52,059 bases of DNA from Candidatus Brevefilum sp. (GTDB lineage: Bacteria > Chloroflexota > Anaerolineae > Anaerolineales > Anaerolineaceae). Below the pieces are notes generated by a model. That model had not been told where the DNA came from. It did no database searches and saw only the letters and a program-made list of their open reading frames with translations. Shown here piece by piece: positions 1,810-34,573 of the stretch. Every line of letters begins with the position of its first letter. The first letter of the stretch is position 1. The translations under genes were made by a program, and so were the position numbers. The stretch spans positions 1-52,059 of the forward strand of contig JARGGB010000011.1 in the NCBI GenBank assembly GCA_029210815.1, read 5' to 3'.

Positions 1810-4083
1810 CTAAGGCTCTTGTGTTGCTTCTTCATCTGCAACGGGTGTCTCGGTGAAAATTGGTGTGTTGGTGGGGATGGGTGTATTCGATGGGATGGGC
1901 GTTGGGGACGCGACCACGTAAGGATAAGCCTCCCAGGGCAAAGTGTATCCCGGGTTGGTGTAATTTGAAAAATATAAAGAAACAGCTCGCCTGAAAACGG
2001 GTGCTGCCATCTCAGACCCCTCACCAGCATTTTCAAGGATGACAGCCACGGCAATATCCGGGCGATCCTCATTCCCAACGCCAGTAAAACCGGCAAACCA
2101 TGCATGGGAATCCCCAAATGGGTTTTGTGCTGTCCCGGTCTTGCCAAATACGGGGTAAGGCATGGTACCTAATTCAAGGTGAGCAGTGCCGCGTCCGTTT
2201 TCAATAACGCTTTCCATCGCATCTCGAATAATGGCAAGGTTCTCTTCTGAAACTGGCAAGCTTCCAATTACCTCAGGCTCAAAAGTGTATGTCGGCGTCC
2301 CATTTTCTGGCCCAATCTGTTCAACCAGCGCGGGCCGATAACGCGTGCCGCCATTCCCAACAGCAGCGACAAAACTGGCAACCTGCAGCGGCGTTACAGT
2401 CATGTCCCCCTGACCGATGGCTAACTGGGTGTTTTGATCACACAGGGTAATGCTTTCAGGAATATTGCCAGGCTGCTCTGATATTTCAATGCCGGTTTCC
2501 TGTCCCAAACCAAAATCTCTGGCTAAGTCAGCGATTGCATTTGGATAGCCTGCGTTAAAAAGCCCTTCACCAATTGTGTAAAACCATGGGTTACAAGAGC
2601 GCATCAAGCCCTCGGGCAGGGTCAATTGTCTGCTCGGGGGTTTGTCTTTTTCATAGGTCCAGTCAAAGAGCTCAATACCGCCGCATACGATGACCGAGTG
2701 GTCACAATACAACTCAGATTCCTTGGTGTACACGCCTGTTTCCAAAGCGGCAGCCATAGTGATAATTTTAAAAACAGAACCCAGCGGGTATTGACCGTTT
2801 GTCGCCCTATTGAACACAGGATCATCAGGTTCAAAATAGGGATTATCCGCATAAACAAAGTTCTGGTTGTTGATATCGAATAAGTTTGGGTCAAACTGCG
2901 GGTTTGAAACCATGGCAATCACCCTGCCAGTGTCAATTTCCATCACGACAATGGCGCCGCGATAGTCACCAAGGGATTGCTGAAGCAAGTATTGCAATCT
3001 CGGTTCAATGGTGGTCGTCAGGGATTGCGCTGCCGATGTCCCCTTTTCAGCCAACTTACTGAGGATCTGGCCGTTAGCATCCTTCACATACAACGAAGCG
3101 CCCCGCTCACCAGACAATTCATCTTCAAAGCTGTATTCCAGGCCTGTACTGCCAAACCGTTCATTGGGTGCATACCCCAAACGAGAGTAGCGGTCCAGTT
3201 CCGCTTCAGAAATATATGTCAGGTGCCCAACAGCCTGGGGAGCAATGCCGCCGTCATAATAGAAGCGCGAGGAATAATAATTCAAATAAACACCGCTCAG
3301 CATGCTCAAAGCACTCATGTTCCTGTCAACTTCAGATTGGGCTGCTTCACCGAGAGCCACGTAATCACCCTCAAATGCTTCTTCAGCCATTTCCCTGACT
3401 TCATCGACCTGGTAAATAGTTAAATCCGCCATGGTTCTGTAAAACAAACCCATTAAGTCTTCATCCAGGTAACCAGGGATAAAGCCAATCGCAACCGCTT
3501 CCTCTTGGGCTGCGATAGGGGAGCCATCACTTGCGTAGATATTCCCGCGAGGTGTCGTTTGGCGCACAATTTCAAGGCTGTTGCCGCCCTGCAATTCAGG
3601 CAAGATCAAGCCGGCATTCCAGACAAGGCGCCACTCACCTGCCTCCCTTATTAAAGGAAAGGTCAGGTCTCGAGTAAATGTGCCGAATAAATTGGTGTTG
3701 TAATCAAGCTTGACGTTTGCAGAGGCTGAATTCGGATTGGTGACAGAAGAGAGAATGTCATATTGAATGCCATCTTCAAAAGCCAGGGTCATTGTGACCG
3801 CTGTGTCATTGAATTTCTCTGAAAATTCCTCAATCGAAACCTGGTTTTGCGACTCCACCGACAGCATACTGTACATGCTTGCATAATCCTCAGCTATCCA
3901 GGCGTCCATATAAGCGCTGACAGCGCCATCCACATCAGGCGCACGGGTAACATACACCTGGGGGGCAGGCAATGTCGCTGTTGCTGTTGCACCTTGCTCC
4001 GGCTCACCCGTCGATGAATTTACCGAGCAAGCTGCCGTTGCCAGCAATATAAGCAGCATTATCACGGAATACAATTTTTTCAT
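1810..4083 (-). CDS. Class B penicillin-binding protein (transpeptidase) with MecA-like NTF2 domain, copy A
   Basis: A 757-residue peptidoglycan D,D-transpeptidase. A lipoprotein-like or membrane-anchoring N terminus (LLATAACS, Cys19) and a Thr/Pro linker are followed by an NTF2-like MecA_N domain (about 50-165), a dimerisation domain (about 170-350) and the transpeptidase domain (about 360-690). The active-site motifs are intact: SVFK (Ser436-Lys439), SCN (496-498) and KTG (648-650). Two cysteines seven residues apart (460 and 467) are also present in the neighbouring paralogue and could form a disulfide. The C terminus ends in a Pro/Thr repeat tail. A -10-like TATAAT at 4144-4149 (minus strand), with a weak TTCCAC 18 bp upstream, lies in the gap after the upstream paralogue, so this gene may have its own promoter. 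It would cross-link cell-wall stem peptides outside the membrane. Confidence 0.9.
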   Translation of the reverse strand: MKKLYSVIMLLILLATAACSVNSSTGEPEQGATATATLPAPQVYVTRAPDVDGAVSAYMDAWIAEDYASMYSMLSVESQNQVSIEEFSEKFNDTAVTMTLAFEDGIQYDILSSVTNPNSASANVKLDYNTNLFGTFTRDLTFPLIREAGEWRLVWNAGLILPELQGGNSLEIVRQTTPRGNIYASDGSPIAAQEEAVAIGFIPGYLDEDLMGLFYRTMADLTIYQVDEVREMAEEAFEGDYVALGEAAQSEVDRNMSALSMLSGVYLNYYSSRFYYDGGIAPQAVGHLTYISEAELDRYSRLGYAPNERFGSTGLEYSFEDELSGERGASLYVKDANGQILSKLAEKGTSAAQSLTTTIEPRLQYLLQQSLGDYRGAIVVMEIDTGRVIAMVSNPQFDPNLFDINNQNFVYADNPYFEPDDPVFNRATNGQYPLGSVFKIITMAAALETGVYTKESELYCDHSVIVCGGIELFDWTYEKDKPPSRQLTLPEGLMRSCNPWFYTIGEGLFNAGYPNAIADLARDFGLGQETGIEISEQPGNIPESITLCDQNTQLAIGQGDMTVTPLQVASFVAAVGNGGTRYRPALVEQIGPENGTPTYTFEPEVIGSLPVSEENLAIIRDAMESVIENGRGTAHLELGTMPYPVFGKTGTAQNPFGDSHAWFAGFTGVGNEDRPDIAVAVILENAGEGSEMAAPVFRRAVSLYFSNYTNPGYTLPWEAYPYVVASPTPIPSNTPIPTNTPIFTETPVADEEATQEP

Positions 4084-4154
4084 CAGTTATTAACTCCAAA
4101 AATGCAAAAAGTGATTTGCATCTTTTTTGAACGCTATCGCTTGATTATACTGTG

Positions 4155-6356
4155 TCAGTCGTCGCTTGTGGAAGTGCCAGTAGGCGTGGGCGCCATAGGG
4201 AGATAGGGTTCTTCTTCCCAGGGCATTAAGCCGGATGGATCTGTGTAGTCAGAAAAATAAAGGGAAACCGCCCTTCGAAATACCGGTGCAGCAACAGCGG
4301 AGCCTTCCCCGCCGTTCTCAATGAGCACGGCGATGGCGATGTCGGGACGTTCGGGGTCGTTTTGTCTTGTGAAGCCGGCGAACCAGGCATGAGCATCACC
4401 GGTTGGTGTTTGTGCTGTGCCCGTCTTGCCCGATACGGGAACATCCAAACCCCGCATCGCCCAATAACCAGTGCCCCGTTCATCTTCGATTACCAGGCGC
4501 AAACCCTCCAAAACAAGTGACCTTGTTTCCTCAGAAATAGGAAGTTCACCCAGGATTTCTGGTTCAAAGCGGATTGTTTCTTCACCAGAAGGTTTTTCGA
4601 TGCTGTTGACAAGGGTCGGTCTGTACAGAGTACCGCCATTGGCAAGAGCGCTTACAAAGCTTGCAACTTGCAATGGAGTCACAAGAATCTCTCCCTGCCC
4701 AATTGCCATTTGTGCGCTGTTAACACAGGTCCCGGCTGTCTCAGGGATATTTCCTGGTTCCTCAGAGATTTCGATACCGGTCTCTTTGCCAAGGCCAAAG
4801 CCAAATGCCATTTGTGACAATGTATCTTCGTAACCTTCCTGGTACAAGCCTTGCCCGATGCGGTAAAACCAGGGATTGCAAGAGCGCATCAGCCCTTCAA
4901 CCAGGGTTAGCTCACCGCTGGCACCAGTCCCATAAGCGTAGGTCCAATCATAGAGTGTCACGCTGTCACACACCCACATCGACTGCCCACAGAAAAAGCT
5001 TGAATACTGGCTGAATAAATTCTTCTCCAATGCAGCCGACATTGAGATCATTTTGAAAACAGAGCCTAATGGATACTGCCCCTGTGTCGCCCGGTTGAAA
5101 AGGGGTTGATCTGGATCCGTAAAATAGGATTGCAACAGACCGCCCTCAGTTTCTGATTTATCAAAGGCATTGGGGTCAAAACCCGGGTTGGAGACCATTG
5201 CCAAAACCCGCCCAGTGTTGATTTCCATCACAACAACAGCCGCTCGAAGGTCACCCAATGACTCTTGCAGCCGCAATTGCAGTTGTTTGTCGATGGTTGT
5301 TGTGATGGACTGCCCGGATTCTGGCTGGCTGGCGGCAAATAAGGACAGGATTTTGCCGTCAGAATCCACCAGGTAAAGAGAACCGCCGTGCACCCCTGAG
5401 AGCTTTGCTTCATAGACAGCTTCAAGGCCAGTGGCACCAATACGCTCATCCTGTCGGTAACCCAGTCGTAAATAAGCCTCCAATTCTTCTTCCGGGATAT
5501 ACAGCCTGTAGCCCAAAACATGCGGTGCGACGCCGCCGTCCACATAATACCGCTCGCGGAACTCATCAATGCGCACCCCACTCAAGCCTCGTAAAGATTC
5601 AATGTATGGCGCTGCCTCCCCCCGAGAGAGGGAAATGATCGGCAGGTACCAGTCATCCGGTGTTGAGTCAACCAGAACAGCCAGTTCCTCAGCGTCATAT
5701 TTACTGAATTCTGCCAGTGTTTCATAAAGCAACGCTGCCTGCTGCGGCAAGATTTCTCCAGGTACCAGCCCAATTGCGAGTGCATCTTCATAGGCAGCCA
5801 TGGGAGCACCCTGACGATCAAAAATTTGACCTCTCGAAGGCGTCTGATGAACAAATTGAAGGTTTCTGCCATCCTCTAATTCGGGCAAAATCAAAGTGCG
5901 GGACCATTGTATTTGCCAGGTATTGTTTTCAAAGGTGAGCGGCATGACCATTTCCCTTGAATGCACCCCAAAAACCCGGGTGTTGTAATCCACACGATAG
6001 GCAACTTCTGCCTGGTGTGTCTTTGCCATTGTGGATAAGACTTGAAAATCAATAAAATCCAGGGTTAAACGGTTTGCCGTATCCTCATAATTATTCTGAA
6101 AATCAATCTCCGTGATCGCATCCTTGCTGAGGGTGGATAACATGCGGTACATGGCAGCATAATCTTCAGCCTTCCAAGCCTCTAGGAAGCGTTCAGCCGC
6201 AGACTGGGCTGACGCAGCCGTAGAAATATCAGGATTTTCGTAAGCCGATACCGATGGGTCCACCGTTGAGTTTCTGGGGGTGCACGCAATTATCAATCCC
6301 AGAATTAAAAGGCTGATGATCCCTTTTTGAATTTTAGCAAGCAGGAAGCGTTTCAT
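4155..6356 (-). CDS. Class B penicillin-binding protein (transpeptidase) with MecA-like NTF2 domain, copy B
   Basis: A 733-residue paralogue of the next gene, with the same layout: signal/lipobox-like LGLIIAC (Cys25), NTF2-like MecA_N domain (about 50-160), dimerisation domain (about 165-345) and transpeptidase domain. Catalytic motifs are SVFK (Ser432-Lys435), SCN (492-494) and KTG (644-646). The Cys pair at 456/463 matches copy A. The C-terminal tail is much shorter than in copy A. It lies 9 bp after maf and 71 bp before copy A, so the pair is a tandem duplication on one strand. Family members of this shape include low-affinity, beta-lactam-tolerant PBPs; whether either copy is such an enzyme cannot be told from sequence. 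Confidence 0.9.
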   Translation of the reverse strand: MKRFLLAKIQKGIISLLILGLIIACTPRNSTVDPSVSAYENPDISTAASAQSAAERFLEAWKAEDYAAMYRMLSTLSKDAITEIDFQNNYEDTANRLTLDFIDFQVLSTMAKTHQAEVAYRVDYNTRVFGVHSREMVMPLTFENNTWQIQWSRTLILPELEDGRNLQFVHQTPSRGQIFDRQGAPMAAYEDALAIGLVPGEILPQQAALLYETLAEFSKYDAEELAVLVDSTPDDWYLPIISLSRGEAAPYIESLRGLSGVRIDEFRERYYVDGGVAPHVLGYRLYIPEEELEAYLRLGYRQDERIGATGLEAVYEAKLSGVHGGSLYLVDSDGKILSLFAASQPESGQSITTTIDKQLQLRLQESLGDLRAAVVVMEINTGRVLAMVSNPGFDPNAFDKSETEGGLLQSYFTDPDQPLFNRATQGQYPLGSVFKMISMSAALEKNLFSQYSSFFCGQSMWVCDSVTLYDWTYAYGTGASGELTLVEGLMRSCNPWFYRIGQGLYQEGYEDTLSQMAFGFGLGKETGIEISEEPGNIPETAGTCVNSAQMAIGQGEILVTPLQVASFVSALANGGTLYRPTLVNSIEKPSGEETIRFEPEILGELPISEETRSLVLEGLRLVIEDERGTGYWAMRGLDVPVSGKTGTAQTPTGDAHAWFAGFTRQNDPERPDIAIAVLIENGGEGSAVAAPVFRRAVSLYFSDYTDPSGLMPWEEEPYLPMAPTPTGTSTSDD

Positions 6357-7332: not shown

Positions 7333-8256
7333 CTAATCGTTTTCTCGCATAATTTTAAAATGATCAAAATCCCTGGCAACATTTACGGCGGGGAAGATTT
7401 CCTGCGCTTCGTCCAGCACATCCCTTTCGCGATAGCGGCGAGATAGATGGGTTAAATAAAGCTGACCCACCCCGGCTTCCTTTGCCAAATTTGCCGCCTG
7501 CGCAGCAGTTAAATGGTCAAATCGTTGCGCGAGGTCCTCTTCAGCCCGGGTGTAGGTTGATTCAATGACCAGAGCATCAGCATCACGAATATTATCCACC
7601 AATTTATCAGGCCGACCTGTATCTCCGACAACAACCAGGGAAGTCCCTTTTCGTGATTCTCCCAAGACCTGGTCAGGGTGGATAGACCTTCCATCCGGCA
7701 GGGTAACCGTTTTTCCGTTGACCAGGTCACGCCGCCATGGGCCCGGTGGGATATTCAGCACTTCTGCTTTTTCAGGTAAAAAGGGTCTGCGGTTGCGTTC
7801 TTCAAACCTGTACCCAAGGGAGTGTGAGCCGCGGTGGTCAACCGGGAAAGCAGTGATCGTAAAACCTTCCGTTTCAAAAAAAGTGCCCGGTTCGATTTCA
7901 TGCAGAGTTACTGGTGGCTTCCCATAGTAACCGCGAAGAACCACACCAAAAATGAGGTCATGCACCCTGTCAAGGGTATGCTGGGTGCCGTAGATCTCAA
8001 TTTCATCCATCACTTCCCAGCGAAGAAATGTCGATACCAGCCCCCCCAAACCCAGGATGTGATCCAGGTGTCCATGGGTCAATAATATTTGATTGAGCCG
8101 TTTAAACCCAACACCAGCACGCAATATCTGCCGCTGGGTGCCCTCCCCACAATCAACCAGAAAGCGAAATTCTTCATGCTGAACCATTAACGATGATAAG
8201 CCGCGATGCACGGACGGTGCCGAGGCTGAAGTACCCAAAAATACAATTTCAAACAA
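7333..8256 (-). CDS. rnz: Ribonuclease Z (tRNA 3' endonuclease)
   Basis: tRNase Z cuts the 3' trailer from tRNA precursors. The 307-residue product has the complete metallo-beta-lactamase set of the family: FLGTSASAP at the N terminus, the metal motif HGHLDH (about 61-66) followed by ILGLGGL, then FPVDHRGSHSLGY, GDTGRPD, and a C-terminal LYLTHLSRRY with the last His ligand. The length matches the short bacterial tRNase Z form with exosite region. It begins 24 bp after the small membrane protein gene on the same strand. All tRNA genes in this window lack an encoded CCA end, so 3' trimming before CCA addition is required, consistent with this enzyme. Confidence 0.95.
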   Translation of the reverse strand: MFEIVFLGTSASAPSVHRGLSSLMVQHEEFRFLVDCGEGTQRQILRAGVGFKRLNQILLTHGHLDHILGLGGLVSTFLRWEVMDEIEIYGTQHTLDRVHDLIFGVVLRGYYGKPPVTLHEIEPGTFFETEGFTITAFPVDHRGSHSLGYRFEERNRRPFLPEKAEVLNIPPGPWRRDLVNGKTVTLPDGRSIHPDQVLGESRKGTSLVVVGDTGRPDKLVDNIRDADALVIESTYTRAEEDLAQRFDHLTAAQAANLAKEAGVGQLYLTHLSRRYRERDVLDEAQEIFPAVNVARDFDHFKIMREND

Positions 8257-8280
8257 TAGTGTCGCCTATTTCTTCAGTGA

Positions 8281-8481
8281 TTATTCTTTTCCAAAGCCGG
8301 CAATCAGGCGCATCAAGCCCAAAAGCCCCAAACCCACCTGGATGCCTTCCCCTGCGGTAAGCTGCGGGGTTTCGTTCTCTTCTTCAGCCCGACTAATTAA
8401 CAAATATGCGGAAATGGCCCCTACAAAAGCACCTATGATTGTGCCAAGAACCATTGTTTTTGTCTTTGACTTTTTATCCAT
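8281..8481 (-). CDS. Small single-pass membrane protein, unknown function
   Basis: A 66-residue protein with a basic N terminus (MDKKSKTK), one glycine-rich hydrophobic segment (about 9-31) and a second moderately hydrophobic stretch near the C terminus (about 47-62). The layout is like the small YtxH-type membrane proteins common in Gram-positive and Chloroflexi genomes, but there is no diagnostic motif. It lies between two other minus-strand genes and has an A-rich upstream region. Judged real because the frame fills the gap between neighbours and the composition is that of a membrane protein. No function is assigned. Confidence 0.6.
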   Translation of the reverse strand: MDKKSKTKTMVLGTIIGAFVGAISAYLLISRAEEENETPQLTAGEGIQVGLGLLGLMRLIAGFGKE

Positions 8482-8557
8482 TTTTAAATCCTTTATTTCT
8501 TGGTTTTGTTTTATGACAACAATACGTATTTATAACCCGAAGGTCAGAATATATCGA

Positions 8558-9016
8558 TTATTTTCGTTTCAGTCCCATCAATGCTGTGAAAAAGCCGTTC
8601 ACGCCTGCCCTAACAGACCTGGCAGAGACTATAGGGCTGACCATCTTTCTCGTCGCTAAATTGATCCGAGCTGTTATCAAACCTGCATATTGCTGTACCA
8701 GGTCTGTGTAAAATGGCAGGATGTTTAACAGCTTTGCCATCAGGAAGATCAAAGCAGCGAGCACCAATGTGCCGAAAAATGCAAACATGATGACCGGCAA
8801 TATTAACCAGATGTTCGAGATATCTGCCCATTGAGATACAGAAGCGCCTGAAAATGTGCCAGAAGCGGTCAGGATCACAAAAACACCAGCAGCAATGATC
8901 AACAAGAAACCGAAAATAATAGGGACCAGTATTTGCCAGGTTCTGTCTCTGTGGTGACGGTGTATGCTCGAACTTGTACGGCTTTTTTCTGTAGTTATCG
9001 AAATTTCTTCATTCAT
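8558..9016 (-). CDS. Putative membrane protein, two transmembrane segments, unknown function
   Basis: A 152-residue protein. A short charged N terminus is followed by two hydrophobic segments (about 27-50 and 62-90) and an amphipathic C-terminal region containing LLNILPFYTDLVQQYAGLITARINLATRKMVSPIVSAR-like helices, cut here for length. ATG 9016 is preferred over an upstream TTG because a promoter (TTGGTT, 17 bp, TAAAAT) ends 7 nt before it, which fits a leaderless mRNA. With the following 66-residue gene it may form a small membrane-protein pair. I do not recognise the family. Confidence 0.65.
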   Translation of the reverse strand: MNEEISITTEKSRTSSSIHRHHRDRTWQILVPIIFGFLLIIAAGVFVILTASGTFSGASVSQWADISNIWLILPVIMFAFFGTLVLAALIFLMAKLLNILPFYTDLVQQYAGLITARINLATRKMVSPIVSARSVRAGVNGFFTALMGLKRK

Positions 9017-9023
9017 AAGCTTT

Positions 9024-9052
9024 ATTTTAACATGAGTTGCGCTGTTAACCAA
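9024..9052 (-). promoter_or_regulatory. Sigma-A type promoter, leaderless configuration
   Basis: Read on the minus strand: -35 TTGGTT (9047-9052), 17-bp spacer, -10 TAAAAT (9024-9029), then 7 nt to ATG 9016. The spacing is ideal and no Shine-Dalgarno sequence is present. Confidence 0.55.
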
Positions 9053-9518
9053 AACATTCCATAGGATTCAACAAAATCCCTCAGGATTTAAATTTTTCAC
9101 CGACCTTATACGCACTTTCCACAAAGGTCTTCATTAATTTAAATTTTATTGTATAATTAGTTTCAAGAATTAAGTCGAATGACTTATTTGAAAAGAAAAT
9201 ATGTTCATCTGCCGCTCTGTAAATTGCAGTTGCGGTCAAGATATCAAAAAGAATCGTACGAAAATTTTTCGCCGGCATCCTGCCTGGCATTATTATTACC
9301 GATGACATTTATGCTGAAGGGTAAAGGTAACACTGATTTAGAAATAATACCTGAGCTCAATCAAGATCAGTGTCAACCAAAGAGTACAGGAAAGAAATGG
9401 TCAATTTTTCAACGTAATTTTTCTTCGACCATTCAAATTTGTTTATCCATTGAACATTCTGGATAAGCAAAGCGATCCTATACATGATTTAAGCCAATAA
9501 GGAATTCTTGTAGATATT
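9053..9518. other. Intergenic region without a convincing gene
   Basis: About 470 bp of AT-rich DNA between divergent genes. Open frames on both strands (to 75 and 95 codons) have no recognisable domain, no good ribosome-binding site and mutually overlap. A TATAAT at 9152-9157 (plus) lacks a good -35. The region may be a long leader of recX or encode a small RNA ending at the hairpin at 9519-9552; neither can be settled here. Confidence 0.5.
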
Positions 9519-31894: not shown

Positions 31895-31982
31895 GGAGAG
31901 GTGCCGGAGTGGACGATCGGGGCGGTCTCGAAAACCGTTGTAGCCTCTGTGGCTACCGAGGGTTCGAATCCCTCCCTCTCCG
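31895..31982 (+). tRNA. tRNA-Ser (anticodon CGA)
   Basis: 88 nt. Acceptor GGAGAGG pairs with CCTCTCC, discriminator G. Anticodon loop CTCGAAA gives CGA. A long variable arm (GTAGCC...GGCTAC) marks a class II tRNA, and the T-arm is GAGGG-TTCGAAT-CCCTC. No CCA is encoded. It reads UCG codons. Confidence 0.93.
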
Positions 31983-31999
31983 CTCTTTTTTAACCATTT

Positions 32000-32317
32000 C
32001 TATTCCCCCTGTATTCCCATCTCGGTAGCAAAGGCATTAACTGTGCCGCCCGGCAAAACGCCTAACGGCTCTTCTGAACCTGCCAACCCATCTGCCACAC
32101 CAGAAACAGTGCCGTCACCGCCGCAAGCCACGACCAAATCATAATCTTCTTTCAGTGCACTTGTGACAACAGCTTTAAGGTCTTGTTCCCCGGTTGTTTC
32201 ATACAAATCAAAATCCCACAAGCCCTGGTCATGGGCGCGATTAAGCACTGCACGAATCTCATCTGGATCACTTTGACCTGCAACGGGATTTTAAACGACA
32301 TAGGCTTTTACTGACAT
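32000..32317 (-). pseudogene. Diacylglycerol kinase-like gene, broken by an in-frame stop and truncated
   Basis: On the minus strand ATG 32317 opens MSVKAYVV, then a TAA stop, then in the same frame NPVAGQSDPDEIRAV and on through VVACGGDGTVSGVADGLAG and LGVLPGGTVNAFATEMGI. This is the start of a DAGK/YegS-type lipid kinase: 'NP.aG' loop and the nucleotide-binding GGDGT. A single T-to-A change in a Leu codon would explain the stop. The frame ends at residue ~105, while the family needs about 290, so the C-terminal two thirds are missing. AGGAGG is still present upstream. The break lies 18 bp from the end of tRNA-Ser(CGA). Confidence 0.8.
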
Positions 32318-32426: not shown

Positions 32427-32696
32427 TCAGGGCGTTCCGTTCAATTCTGCTTTATCATACAGCCCATCGATATCCTCCTGATGAGCCTCATCTTCCCCAT
32501 AAGAAATGCCCGCACAAATCAGGCAGGCAAAGATTCGATCCACGTATTCAAGATCCTGTTCCGGGAATGGTACATGACGCAAAATGTCTTCGTAGGAAAC
32601 AAAGGATTTCTCTCGACCTAATTTAAACAAATTGGCAATCGGAGATGTCTCATTCCCCTCATTTATTTCGTTATCAATCATTGATTGTGAGACCAT
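32427..32696 (-). CDS. Stand-alone sigma-70 region 1.1-like protein
   Basis: An 89-residue protein whose residues 17-71 align without gaps with residues 17-71 of the housekeeping sigma factor encoded just upstream: 24 of 55 positions are identical by hand count, including TSxIAxL, GRxKSF, DIL and LIxAxIxY. It ends soon after this domain in an acidic tail and has no region 1.2-4. The frame is intact with an ATG start; AGG about 10 nt upstream is a weak ribosome-binding site. It lies 148 bp after the sigma gene on the same strand. It could bind core polymerase or sigma as a competitor, or be the remnant of a partial duplication. Role is inference. Confidence 0.72.
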   Translation of the reverse strand: MVSQSMIDNEINEGNETSPIANLFKLGREKSFVSYEDILRHVPFPEQDLEYVDRIFACLICAGISYGEDEAHQEDIDGLYDKAELNGTP

Positions 32697-32844
32697 TGCT
32701 GCAACCTGTTCTAAGAATAATCTTCGGACCTGTGTCGCCTATTTAAGTTAAGCATATTATTATTTCCGAAAATTTGCAAGGGAAACTTATTAGAAAATAA
32801 CACTGAATAACTGCAAAGGTCAAGAAATATTTAATCTCAAGCAC

Positions 32845-34074
32845 TTACTTCGATAAATAATCTCGCAGTCGACGCTTGATCGAGGGATGTCGCAATCGTG
32901 ACAAAGCCTGTGCCTGAATTTGACGGACCCGTTCCCTGGTTACACCCATTTTGCGCCCCACTTCTTCAAGGGTATAAGCCTGACCGTCCAATAAGCCAAA
33001 CCGCAGCTGCAAGATTCGAACTTCTCTTGAAGGCAATGAATCAAGCACCGAAAGCAAGCTTTCCTTAAGCAAATGACTTGTTGCTATGTCATCCGGCAAT
33101 GGGATTTCTTGATCCTCAATGAAATCGCCCAGGGTTGAGTCGCCCTCGTCATCTGTTGGTAATTCAAGGGATAAAGGACGCCTGGCGACATCCATCATAT
33201 GTTCCACCTTTTCAGGGGTAACCTCTAATGCCTCGGCAAGCTCCTCAATTTTTGGTTTGCGGTCTAAATGCTGGGTCAATTCGTGCTGAACTCGTAATAA
33301 CTTATTTATCTGATCCCCCATGTGCACGGGGACACGGATCGTCCGCCCCTGGTCTGCCACTGCCCGTGAGATTGCCTGGCGTATCCACCAGGTGGCGTAT
33401 GTGCTGAATTTGTGACCGCGACGGTACTCAAACTTTTTTGTTGCCCGCATCAAGCCAATATTGCCTTCCTGGATTAAATCAAGGAAAGGAACTCCCCGGT
33501 TCATGTATTTCTTGGCAATGCTGATCACCAGTCGAGAATTGGCAGTGATCAGATGTTCTCGAGCTTTCCATCCATCCTCAACAAGCCTCCTCAGTTCAAC
33601 CCGTCTCCGATCAGAAACATAGCCGCGTGCCAGCTCAGCCCGGGCTAAACGCCCACTTTCAATTCGCTGGGCAAGGGCAACTTCCTCCACTGCCGTCAAC
33701 AATGGTACACGGCTGACCTCTTTGAAGTACAGACCAATGGTGTCGTTGGTCTCAATATTAGAAAGATCATCCGATGAGGTGCCCTGTGCCTTATTCGCCT
33801 TTTGCTCCCTGGCTTTTTCCTCCACCTTTTTAAGCTCCTCATCAGAAGGTTGGTCAAGGAGTTCGGCATCCTCAACGTAAGGAATGCATGCGCTGATTAA
33901 AGCGCTGAACACCATTTCCAGTTTTTTGACGTCCTCTTCTGCTTCTGGAAAGATTTGGAGGATATCACTTGTAGTGATGAAGGATTTATTTCTGCCAATT
34001 TGGATCAAACGAGCTATTGAAGAAGTGCCCTGCCCGCCGTTTGATTTTGCACTCGTCGTGGACTTTATGCCCAT
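32845..34074 (-). CDS. sigA: RNA polymerase primary sigma factor (RpoD/SigA type)
   Basis: A 409-residue group 1 sigma factor. Region 1.1 (about 17-75) is followed by a short charged linker, region 1.2 with [21 protein letters not shown] (split here as [21 protein letters not shown]), region 2 with [20 protein letters not shown] and [13 protein letters not shown], which reads -10 DNA, region 3 (about 270-330) and region 4 with [19 protein letters not shown], the helix-turn-helix for -35. The consensus -10 hexamers found in this window fit such a factor. TACAAT lies 12 nt before ATG on the minus strand. tRNA-Ser(GCT) is upstream with a terminator between, so it has its own promoter. Confidence 0.96.
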
Positions 34075-34325
34075 AGGCTCTTTCTATTGTATGAAAGGAA
34101 TGAATAAGCAGCGATTAACCCCAACTAAACCGCCATATCAACATTATTGAACGAACCTTGATTACGATAACCCAACACCCCATAAGTCTAGTATTTTTTA
34201 ATCAAAATATCAACCTTTTGGGCAATACGAGATAAAAAAATGCGTTGAGAAAGACCAGAAAAAGCTTGAATAATGAAGAATATCAAATTGTATGCTTACT
34301 GTAAAAAATTTTTATATATATCCCA
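34075..34325. other. Non-coding gap between sigA and the tRNA terminator
   Basis: About 250 bp of AT-rich DNA upstream of sigA. Apart from the TACAAT just before the sigA start, I see no gene, repeat or structured RNA. Confidence 0.5.
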
Positions 34326-34360: not shown

Positions 34361-34368
34361 TATTTCAG

Positions 34369-34458
34369 CGGGGAGGGAGGGATTCGAACCCTCGGTTGAG
34401 CTAAACACCCAACAACCACTTAGCAGGCGGCCCCATTCAACCACTCTGGCACCTCCCC
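34369..34458 (-). tRNA. tRNA-Ser (anticodon GCT)
   Basis: 90 nt. Acceptor GGGGAGG pairs with CCTCCCC, discriminator G. Anticodon loop CTGCTAA gives GCT. Long variable arm and T-arm GAGGG-TTCGAAT-CCCTC. No CCA is encoded. It reads AGC/AGU codons. Confidence 0.92.
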
Positions 34459-34486
34459 AGACATAAATAATACCCCACTATAAAGG

Positions 34487-34573
34487 CGGAGGGAGAGGGA
34501 TTCGAACCCACGGTGGGCGTGAACCCACACCTGTTTTCAAGACAGGCGCCTTAGTCCACTCGGCCATCCCTCC
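34487..34573 (-). tRNA. tRNA-Ser (anticodon TGA)
   Basis: 87 nt. Acceptor GGAGGGA pairs with TCCCTCC, discriminator G. Anticodon arm CCTGT-CTTGAAA-ACAGG gives TGA. Long variable arm. The T-stem GTGGG/CCCTC has one U-U mismatch. No CCA is encoded. It lies 28 bp from tRNA-Ser(GCT) and is probably cotranscribed. Confidence 0.9.

Follow-up and report, generated by a model that had tools for sequence, protein, structure and literature searches.

The window analysed here is the whole stretch of 52,059 nucleotides from Candidatus Brevefilum sp. (contig JARGGB010000011.1 of assembly GCA_029210815.1; the genome that carries it is called G000 below). On its minus strand lies a small gene that encodes region 1.1 of a sigma-70 factor (R1.1) and that we call SA, for stand-alone region 1.1 gene; the names SA, sigA, sigC and sigM were coined in the present analysis. 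The features of the locus are as follows.

32427..32696, minus strand: SA, stand-alone sigma region 1.1 protein, 89 aa (open reading frame, Pfam, BLASTP, dN/dS, AlphaFold2)
32749..32779, minus strand: promoter-like element of SA, TTGCAA, 17 nt, TATGCT (matrix, intergenic alignment)
32845..34074, minus strand: sigC, full sigma-70 factor of 409 aa and sigA paralogue (Pfam, tree)
33814-34023, minus strand: R1.1 of sigC (Pfam)
34183..34213, minus strand: promoter element of sigC, of the same type, TTGATATTTTGATTAAAAAATACTAGACTTA (matrix and pattern search)
32012-32317, minus strand: diacylglycerol-kinase-like remnant on the other side of SA (residues 1-102 of 303)
31895-31983, 34368-34458 and 34485-34573: tRNA-Ser genes (cga, gct and tga)

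The SA protein is the sigma-70 R1.1 domain alone, encoded as its own gene. Its frame is intact and begins with ATG, and its 89 residues match PF03979 (Sigma70_r1_1) with an E-value of 1.1e-5 and 25.7 bits against a cut-off of 22.5, with no other Pfam family at E <= 0.1. Sigma regions 1.2, 2, 3 and 4 gave no match in Pfam at that threshold, so SA is not a complete sigma-70 factor, and the HARE-HTH family (PF05066) gave none in the window SA either. In BLASTP, SA and the adjacent 409-aa sigma share 30 of 85 residues (E 6e-14); residues 17-71 of SA pair gap-free with residues 17-71 of sigC, and a recount by hand gave 24 identities in 55 positions, the same figure as in the first-pass annotation. 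That annotation had taken the gene for a free-standing region 1.1 protein and had proposed a PF03979 profile search as a check, the significant outcome of which bears it out.

The neighbouring sigC contains R1.1 and regions 1.2, 2, 3 and 4 by Pfam. Besides SA, G000 encodes three full R1.1-bearing sigmas, on contigs C11 (sigA), C99 (sigM, beside a gene that we take to be metG-like) and C2 (sigC), and nine of its 12 region-2 sigma matches have no R1.1 match. Relatives of sigA occur throughout the family, for which reason sigA is taken here as the primary sigma. By comparison, 5 of the 16 genus genomes proved to contain sigC (G000, G007, G010, G012 and G015), several of the others being incomplete. 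A tree of sigma bodies without R1.1 placed the sigC copies in one clade (95/90) that branches with the sigA copies of the genus (91/90), and sigC is thus a paralogue of sigA and probably not the primary sigma. A sigM copy at L078 (G001:C76), positions 8185-9247, is split into overlapping frames of 199 and 156 aa, perhaps through an assembly error.

SA is present in 13 of the 16 genomes of the genus, all 13 proteins exceeding the PF03979 cut-off in the genus scan. They are 68-89 aa long, have about 20 residues or fewer past the aligned core, without a long disordered polyanionic C-terminal region, and are uniformly acidic, with net charges from -3 to -14. The three genomes that lack SA (G001, G008 and G009) form one clade (99/99), and in a tree with seven outgroups this trio is sister to the other 13, whose branch is supported at 82/81. 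Estimated completeness is 66% for G001, 96% for G008 and 95% for G009, and 69-98% for the SA genomes; since SA was found in 13 of 13 although these completeness values multiply to only 0.10, it is effectively a core gene of that clade. When a profile of the 13 SAs was run over 147 family genomes, those 13 headed the listed matches, a rank that is partly by construction as the profile was built from them. The only other frames shorter than 150 aa among the family matches listed, G007:C209 and G117:C8, are both sigmas cut by contig ends and were left out of the SA count; a 171-aa frame in G142 is a further candidate. The 197-aa R1.1 frame in G299, a five-contig genome, was rejected as SA: it belongs to a complete primary-type sigma (L101, G299:C1, positions 3845-4991) whose reading frame is broken in the linker between region 1.1 and 1.2, by either a sequencing error or a real split. 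Over 396 genomes of the class, three of them from the genus, SA appeared only in those three among the matches listed. No further stand-alone R1.1 stood among the matches listed for the 147 family and 396 class genomes, and divergent ones could exist elsewhere, most of all beyond the family and beyond Chloroflexota. Literature searches, to which subscription papers were mostly out of reach, showed no description of a gene for region 1.1 alone among the papers listed. SA is not a contig-end artefact, lying well inside contigs in G000, G005, G010, G011, G012, G013 and G014, and a phage origin was rejected after no match was obtained in 50,697 phage records (E <= 0.01) and none was confirmed in viral contigs.

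The position of SA varies among the genomes. It follows sigC in 5 of 13; the other 8 genomes showed no sigma next to it, the contig of G006 ending 249 bases upstream. Measured against the genes that flank the window locus (RNase D-like, beta-CASP and PP2C), SA lies about 1.6 to 17 kb away in G004, G005, G006, G011 and G014; in G013 it is on a different contig from the window-type locus, beside a two-gene pair that also adjoins SA in G004 and G006, and in G002 and G003 it sits on short contigs without any of the flanking genes. In two of the genomes that lack SA, G008 and G009, the interval from beta-CASP to PP2C is present with no SA inside. Two points of the first-pass annotation have to be revised accordingly: SA probably does not stand next to the primary sigma gene, its neighbour in the window being a paralogue and most SAs having no sigma found beside them, and the tandem arrangement that it proposed to look for beside rpoD in other Chloroflexota was seen, among the matches listed, only in this genus. 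Absence from all related genomes, which it had named as evidence against its reading, did not come about. Because 8 of the 13 SAs have no sigma detected next to them, a role tied to an adjacent sigma is unlikely as the general function, and a role confined to the neighbouring sigC was rejected. Three tRNA-Ser genes flank the SA-sigC pair in the window, each less than 1 kb away.

Among the close species G000, G007 and G012, the dN/dS of SA is 0.033, 0.045 and 0.077, compared with 0.05-0.07 for sigC and 0.13-0.19 for PP2C over the same three pairs. SA differs between G000 and G012 by 11 changes that are synonymous and 2 that are not (Fisher p 1.5e-6), and seven more distant pairs gave dN/dS values of 0.17-0.42, dS being saturated in three of the 13 SA pairs. 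By these sequence comparisons SA is under purifying selection and is not decaying, whereas downstream the diacylglycerol-kinase-like gene survives as a remnant, interrupted by an in-frame TAA at codon 9 (G012 has the whole 303-aa gene at the same place). The argument already made from the intact frame and conserved core against simple decay therefore gains from 13 intact frames in 13 genomes and from dN/dS of 0.03-0.08, far below the value near 1 that had been named as evidence for decay.

Over the same nine species pairs, core identity is 37-74% for SA versus 72-85% for the R1.1 of sigA, so SA diverges faster. Seven residues of the R1.1 core are nevertheless invariant in all 13 SAs (S18, A21, L23, I38, L39, L59 and I64). 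Comparison of the 13 SAs with 20 sigA R1.1 sequences, ten from the genus and ten from outside it (the ten sigM R1.1 sequences were left out here and in the domain tree), revealed a set of signature residues: D53 in 12 of 13 SAs (E in 20/20 sigA), R54 in 11 (E in 15/20), L49 in 11 (V in 19/20), P45 in 10 (A in 20/20), F24 in 10 (I in 18/20) and G67 in 10 (I or V in 17/20). One charge on the third helix is reversed relative to sigA R1.1. This reversal and the faster divergence suggest that the partner of SA may differ from that of sigA R1.1. In the tree of the short domain, ten SAs group together (89/88) and those of G002, G003 and G013, on long branches, stray; a grouping of all 13 was not rejected (p-AU 0.377), and a single origin within the genus is most likely.

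The promoter-like element of SA, with its TATGCT hexamer at 32751-32756, ends 52 nt before the ATG and is related to the promoters of sigA and sigC. The intergenic alignment comprised G000, G007, G012, G010 and G015, and the element upstream of the SAs resembles TTGATGTTTT-n-AAATAATAATATGCTTA. Run on both strands of 595 kb of loci that overlap in part, a matrix built from nine SA sites found 31 sites that scored more than 14 bits: 11 at SA, 11 at sigA, 5 at sigC and 4 others that all scored below 17 bits. Since SA sites served to train this matrix, its result for SA is circular, and the test was repeated with a matrix of nine sigA sites only. With it the upstream regions of 10 of 13 SAs outscored 473 of 479 controls (mechanically defined frames, 120 aa or longer, taken from 28 loci; some overlap, and a few sigM copies are included), and the six controls on top were one sigA from the training set and five sigC genes. 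The SA of G003 was weak in this test, 33 of 479 controls scoring as high, and the matrix returned no sigma-type promoter for SA in G011 and G005. The sigA of G003 scored 13.7; at sigA loci outside the genus, 10 of 12 scored at least 12.9 and the remaining two gave nothing, and none of nine sigM loci exceeded a score of 9. A pattern drawn from all three gene groups was searched over the 16 genomes with up to three mismatches and gave 24 sites, 10 at sigA, 5 at sigC, 5 at SA and 4 elsewhere, the last with three mismatches each; a reversed-pattern control gave 4 sites. Within three mismatches the pattern reached 5 of 13 SAs, and the window SA element was not among the 24 sites. A default promoter scan listed another candidate at 32823-32794, which the pattern finds only in G000; the element described here was missing from that scan because its 8 of 12 hexamer matches fall below the limit of 9.

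The sigA-type promoter itself, TTGATTTTT-n-AAAAA-n-TATTCT, has T- and A-runs in its spacer and recurs at sigA in the family and order; the inverted T-run and A-run may be an operator or a bend. Its positions include the following.

34183-34213 of the window, minus strand: sigA-type promoter
L001, 1335-1365: sigA-type promoter
L019, 1365-1395: sigA-type promoter
L023, 1351-1381: sigA-type promoter

With a sigma-type promoter as well as an R1.1 domain, SA resembles the first part of a sigma gene, kept as a gene of its own. From these similarities SA most likely inherited the sigma-gene promoter together with the first domain.

The AlphaFold2 model of SA, calculated from 11 sequences, has a mean pLDDT of 70, with blocks 21-70 at 81-88, and its predicted elements are, in order, helix 19-30, strand 32-34, helix 35-41, helix 49-61, strand 65-67 and helix 70-83. 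Against known structures the best Foldseek E-value was a weak 0.78, and sigma chains occupied ranks 1, 2, 3 and 5. A second structural comparison (VIA) returned sigma chains over their R1.1 part in rows 1-6, with Z-scores of only 3.6-5.9, the middling range on that tool's own scale. Chains 8to1_L and 6psu_L were counted as sigma chains from their entry titles. Given the weak Foldseek E-values we make no independent claim about the fold of SA. A profile search of PDB sequences with SA had as its best match 2k6x (E 4.4e-6), whose 72-residue chain bears the name RNA polymerase sigma factor rpoD.

Compared with R1.1 of the primary (group 1) sigmas, SA belongs to the same family above the curated cut-off, is likewise acidic and has the predicted helix-strand-helix-helix-strand core, its best structural matches, weak as they are, being sigma chains. 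It differs in being a separate gene without regions 1.2-4 and in having D53-R54 where sigA mostly has E-E. In PMC4598750, R1.1 is described as holding free sigma compact and off DNA and as acting afterwards as a DNA mimic in the channel of the polymerase until it is displaced. An experimental parallel is the isolated R1.1 of E. coli sigma-70 (residues 1-100), a man-made fragment and not, like SA, a natural, conserved gene. Added in trans, it restored full inhibition by Gp2 of both R1.1-less holoenzyme and sigma-38 holoenzyme, and without Gp2 it did not antagonize R1.1-less holoenzyme (PMC3778932), so that an effect of SA by itself is not assured. SA may also be likened to T7 Gp2 and TraR/DksA, which are small proteins that act on polymerase and not on promoter DNA; there is no sign that SA is related to them, as Pfam gives it only PF03979.

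We see about an even chance that SA descends from the first part of a primary-type sigma gene and has been retained as a regulator of RNA polymerase dosed with the primary sigma. The front end of such a gene, promoter plus region 1.1, would have split off once inside the genus, and SA would be produced in step with the primary sigma through what would be a copy of the primary-sigma promoter. The acidic protein would lodge in the downstream-DNA channel, either of core polymerase or of holoenzymes with an R1.1-less sigma, and keep DNA out of the channel until displaced; in this way it would serve as a trans-acting gatekeeper or take part in sigma competition. With no delta subunit identified in the genus, it could also do a delta-like job. 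By the most likely mode of action SA would attach to polymerase in trans, either in the channel or close by, at a dose set with the primary sigma. Among the mechanisms proposed in the first-pass annotation (competition for the channel, action on sigma in trans, titration of an anti-sigma factor), the sigma-type promoter favours those matched to primary-sigma supply. A stronger form of this proposal, which we advance tentatively and rate well short of even, is that SA is a natural trans-acting R1.1 that supplies a gate to core enzyme as well as to alternative-sigma holoenzymes, at a level that follows the supply of primary sigma, and is in this sense a sigma-derived analogue of delta that arose in a lineage with no delta identified.

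SA might instead act on free sigma, folding onto the DNA-binding regions of sigA (and sigC) as a brake that keeps sigma off DNA and is matched to its dose. Action of R1.1 in trans on sigma fragments is reported in classic work. A sigma-type promoter would match such a brake to sigma, and the cis effect of R1.1 on free sigma reported in PMC4598750 points the same way. However, the R1.1-bearing sigmas of these genomes carry their own R1.1 in cis, which should win locally, and the signature residues of SA differ from those of sigA; we regard this reading as unlikely.

In Bacillus subtilis and its relatives, delta is a small separate protein. Its N-terminal domain is similar to sigma 1.1 but sits on the beta' jaw/shelf and not in the channel, and delta promotes the replacement of sigma-A by sigmas without 1.1 (PMC7749165). 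A HARE-HTH scan of the 16 genomes identified no delta in the genus, its one match being a 344-aa frame in G013. As a delta-like surface subunit SA would dock on the jaw/shelf and shift sigma exchange or recycling, and the charge reversal in helix 3 would suit another surface. The channel activity of delta, on the other hand, sits in a long acidic tail to which SA, at 68-89 aa, has nothing comparable, and unlike delta SA shows no HARE-HTH match (at E <= 0.1 for the window SA) and appears by sequence and promoter to derive from a sigma gene. A delta-like surface subunit is quite unlikely.

That SA has left transcription for some other role would agree with its fast divergence, its SA-only residues and its changing gene neighbours, but the R1.1 core is kept, with the seven residues invariant throughout, and a sigma-type promoter is found in 10 of 13 genomes, which makes such a departure improbable. 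A decoy for a phage protein or an anti-sigma aimed at sigma R1.1 is very improbable: Gp2 exploits R1.1 (PMC3778932) and fast divergence would suit an arms race, but selection among close species is strongly purifying, a sigma-type promoter would not be typical of defence, and no viral relatives were found, though such a target could be unrelated. That SA is a meaningless remainder of a broken sigma gene is scarcely credible, for although SA apparently originates from the front of a sigma gene and adjoins a paralogous sigma in the window, the frames, dN/dS and p-value given above speak against it, its promoter is conserved while the adjoining diacylglycerol-kinase-like gene visibly decays, and for the close trio G000, G007 and G012 this reading is refuted.

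R1.1 is familiar as a cis-acting gate of primary sigmas and, in experiments, as an artificial fragment that acts in trans. With a natural, conserved gene that encodes nothing but R1.1, one can ask whether the gate works as a diffusible regulator, and whether other holoenzymes gain a gate that they lack. In SA the promoter and first domain of a sigma gene would have been recruited as a new gene, and its sigma-type promoter predicts that SA is co-expressed with sigA, so that the two would rise and fall together.
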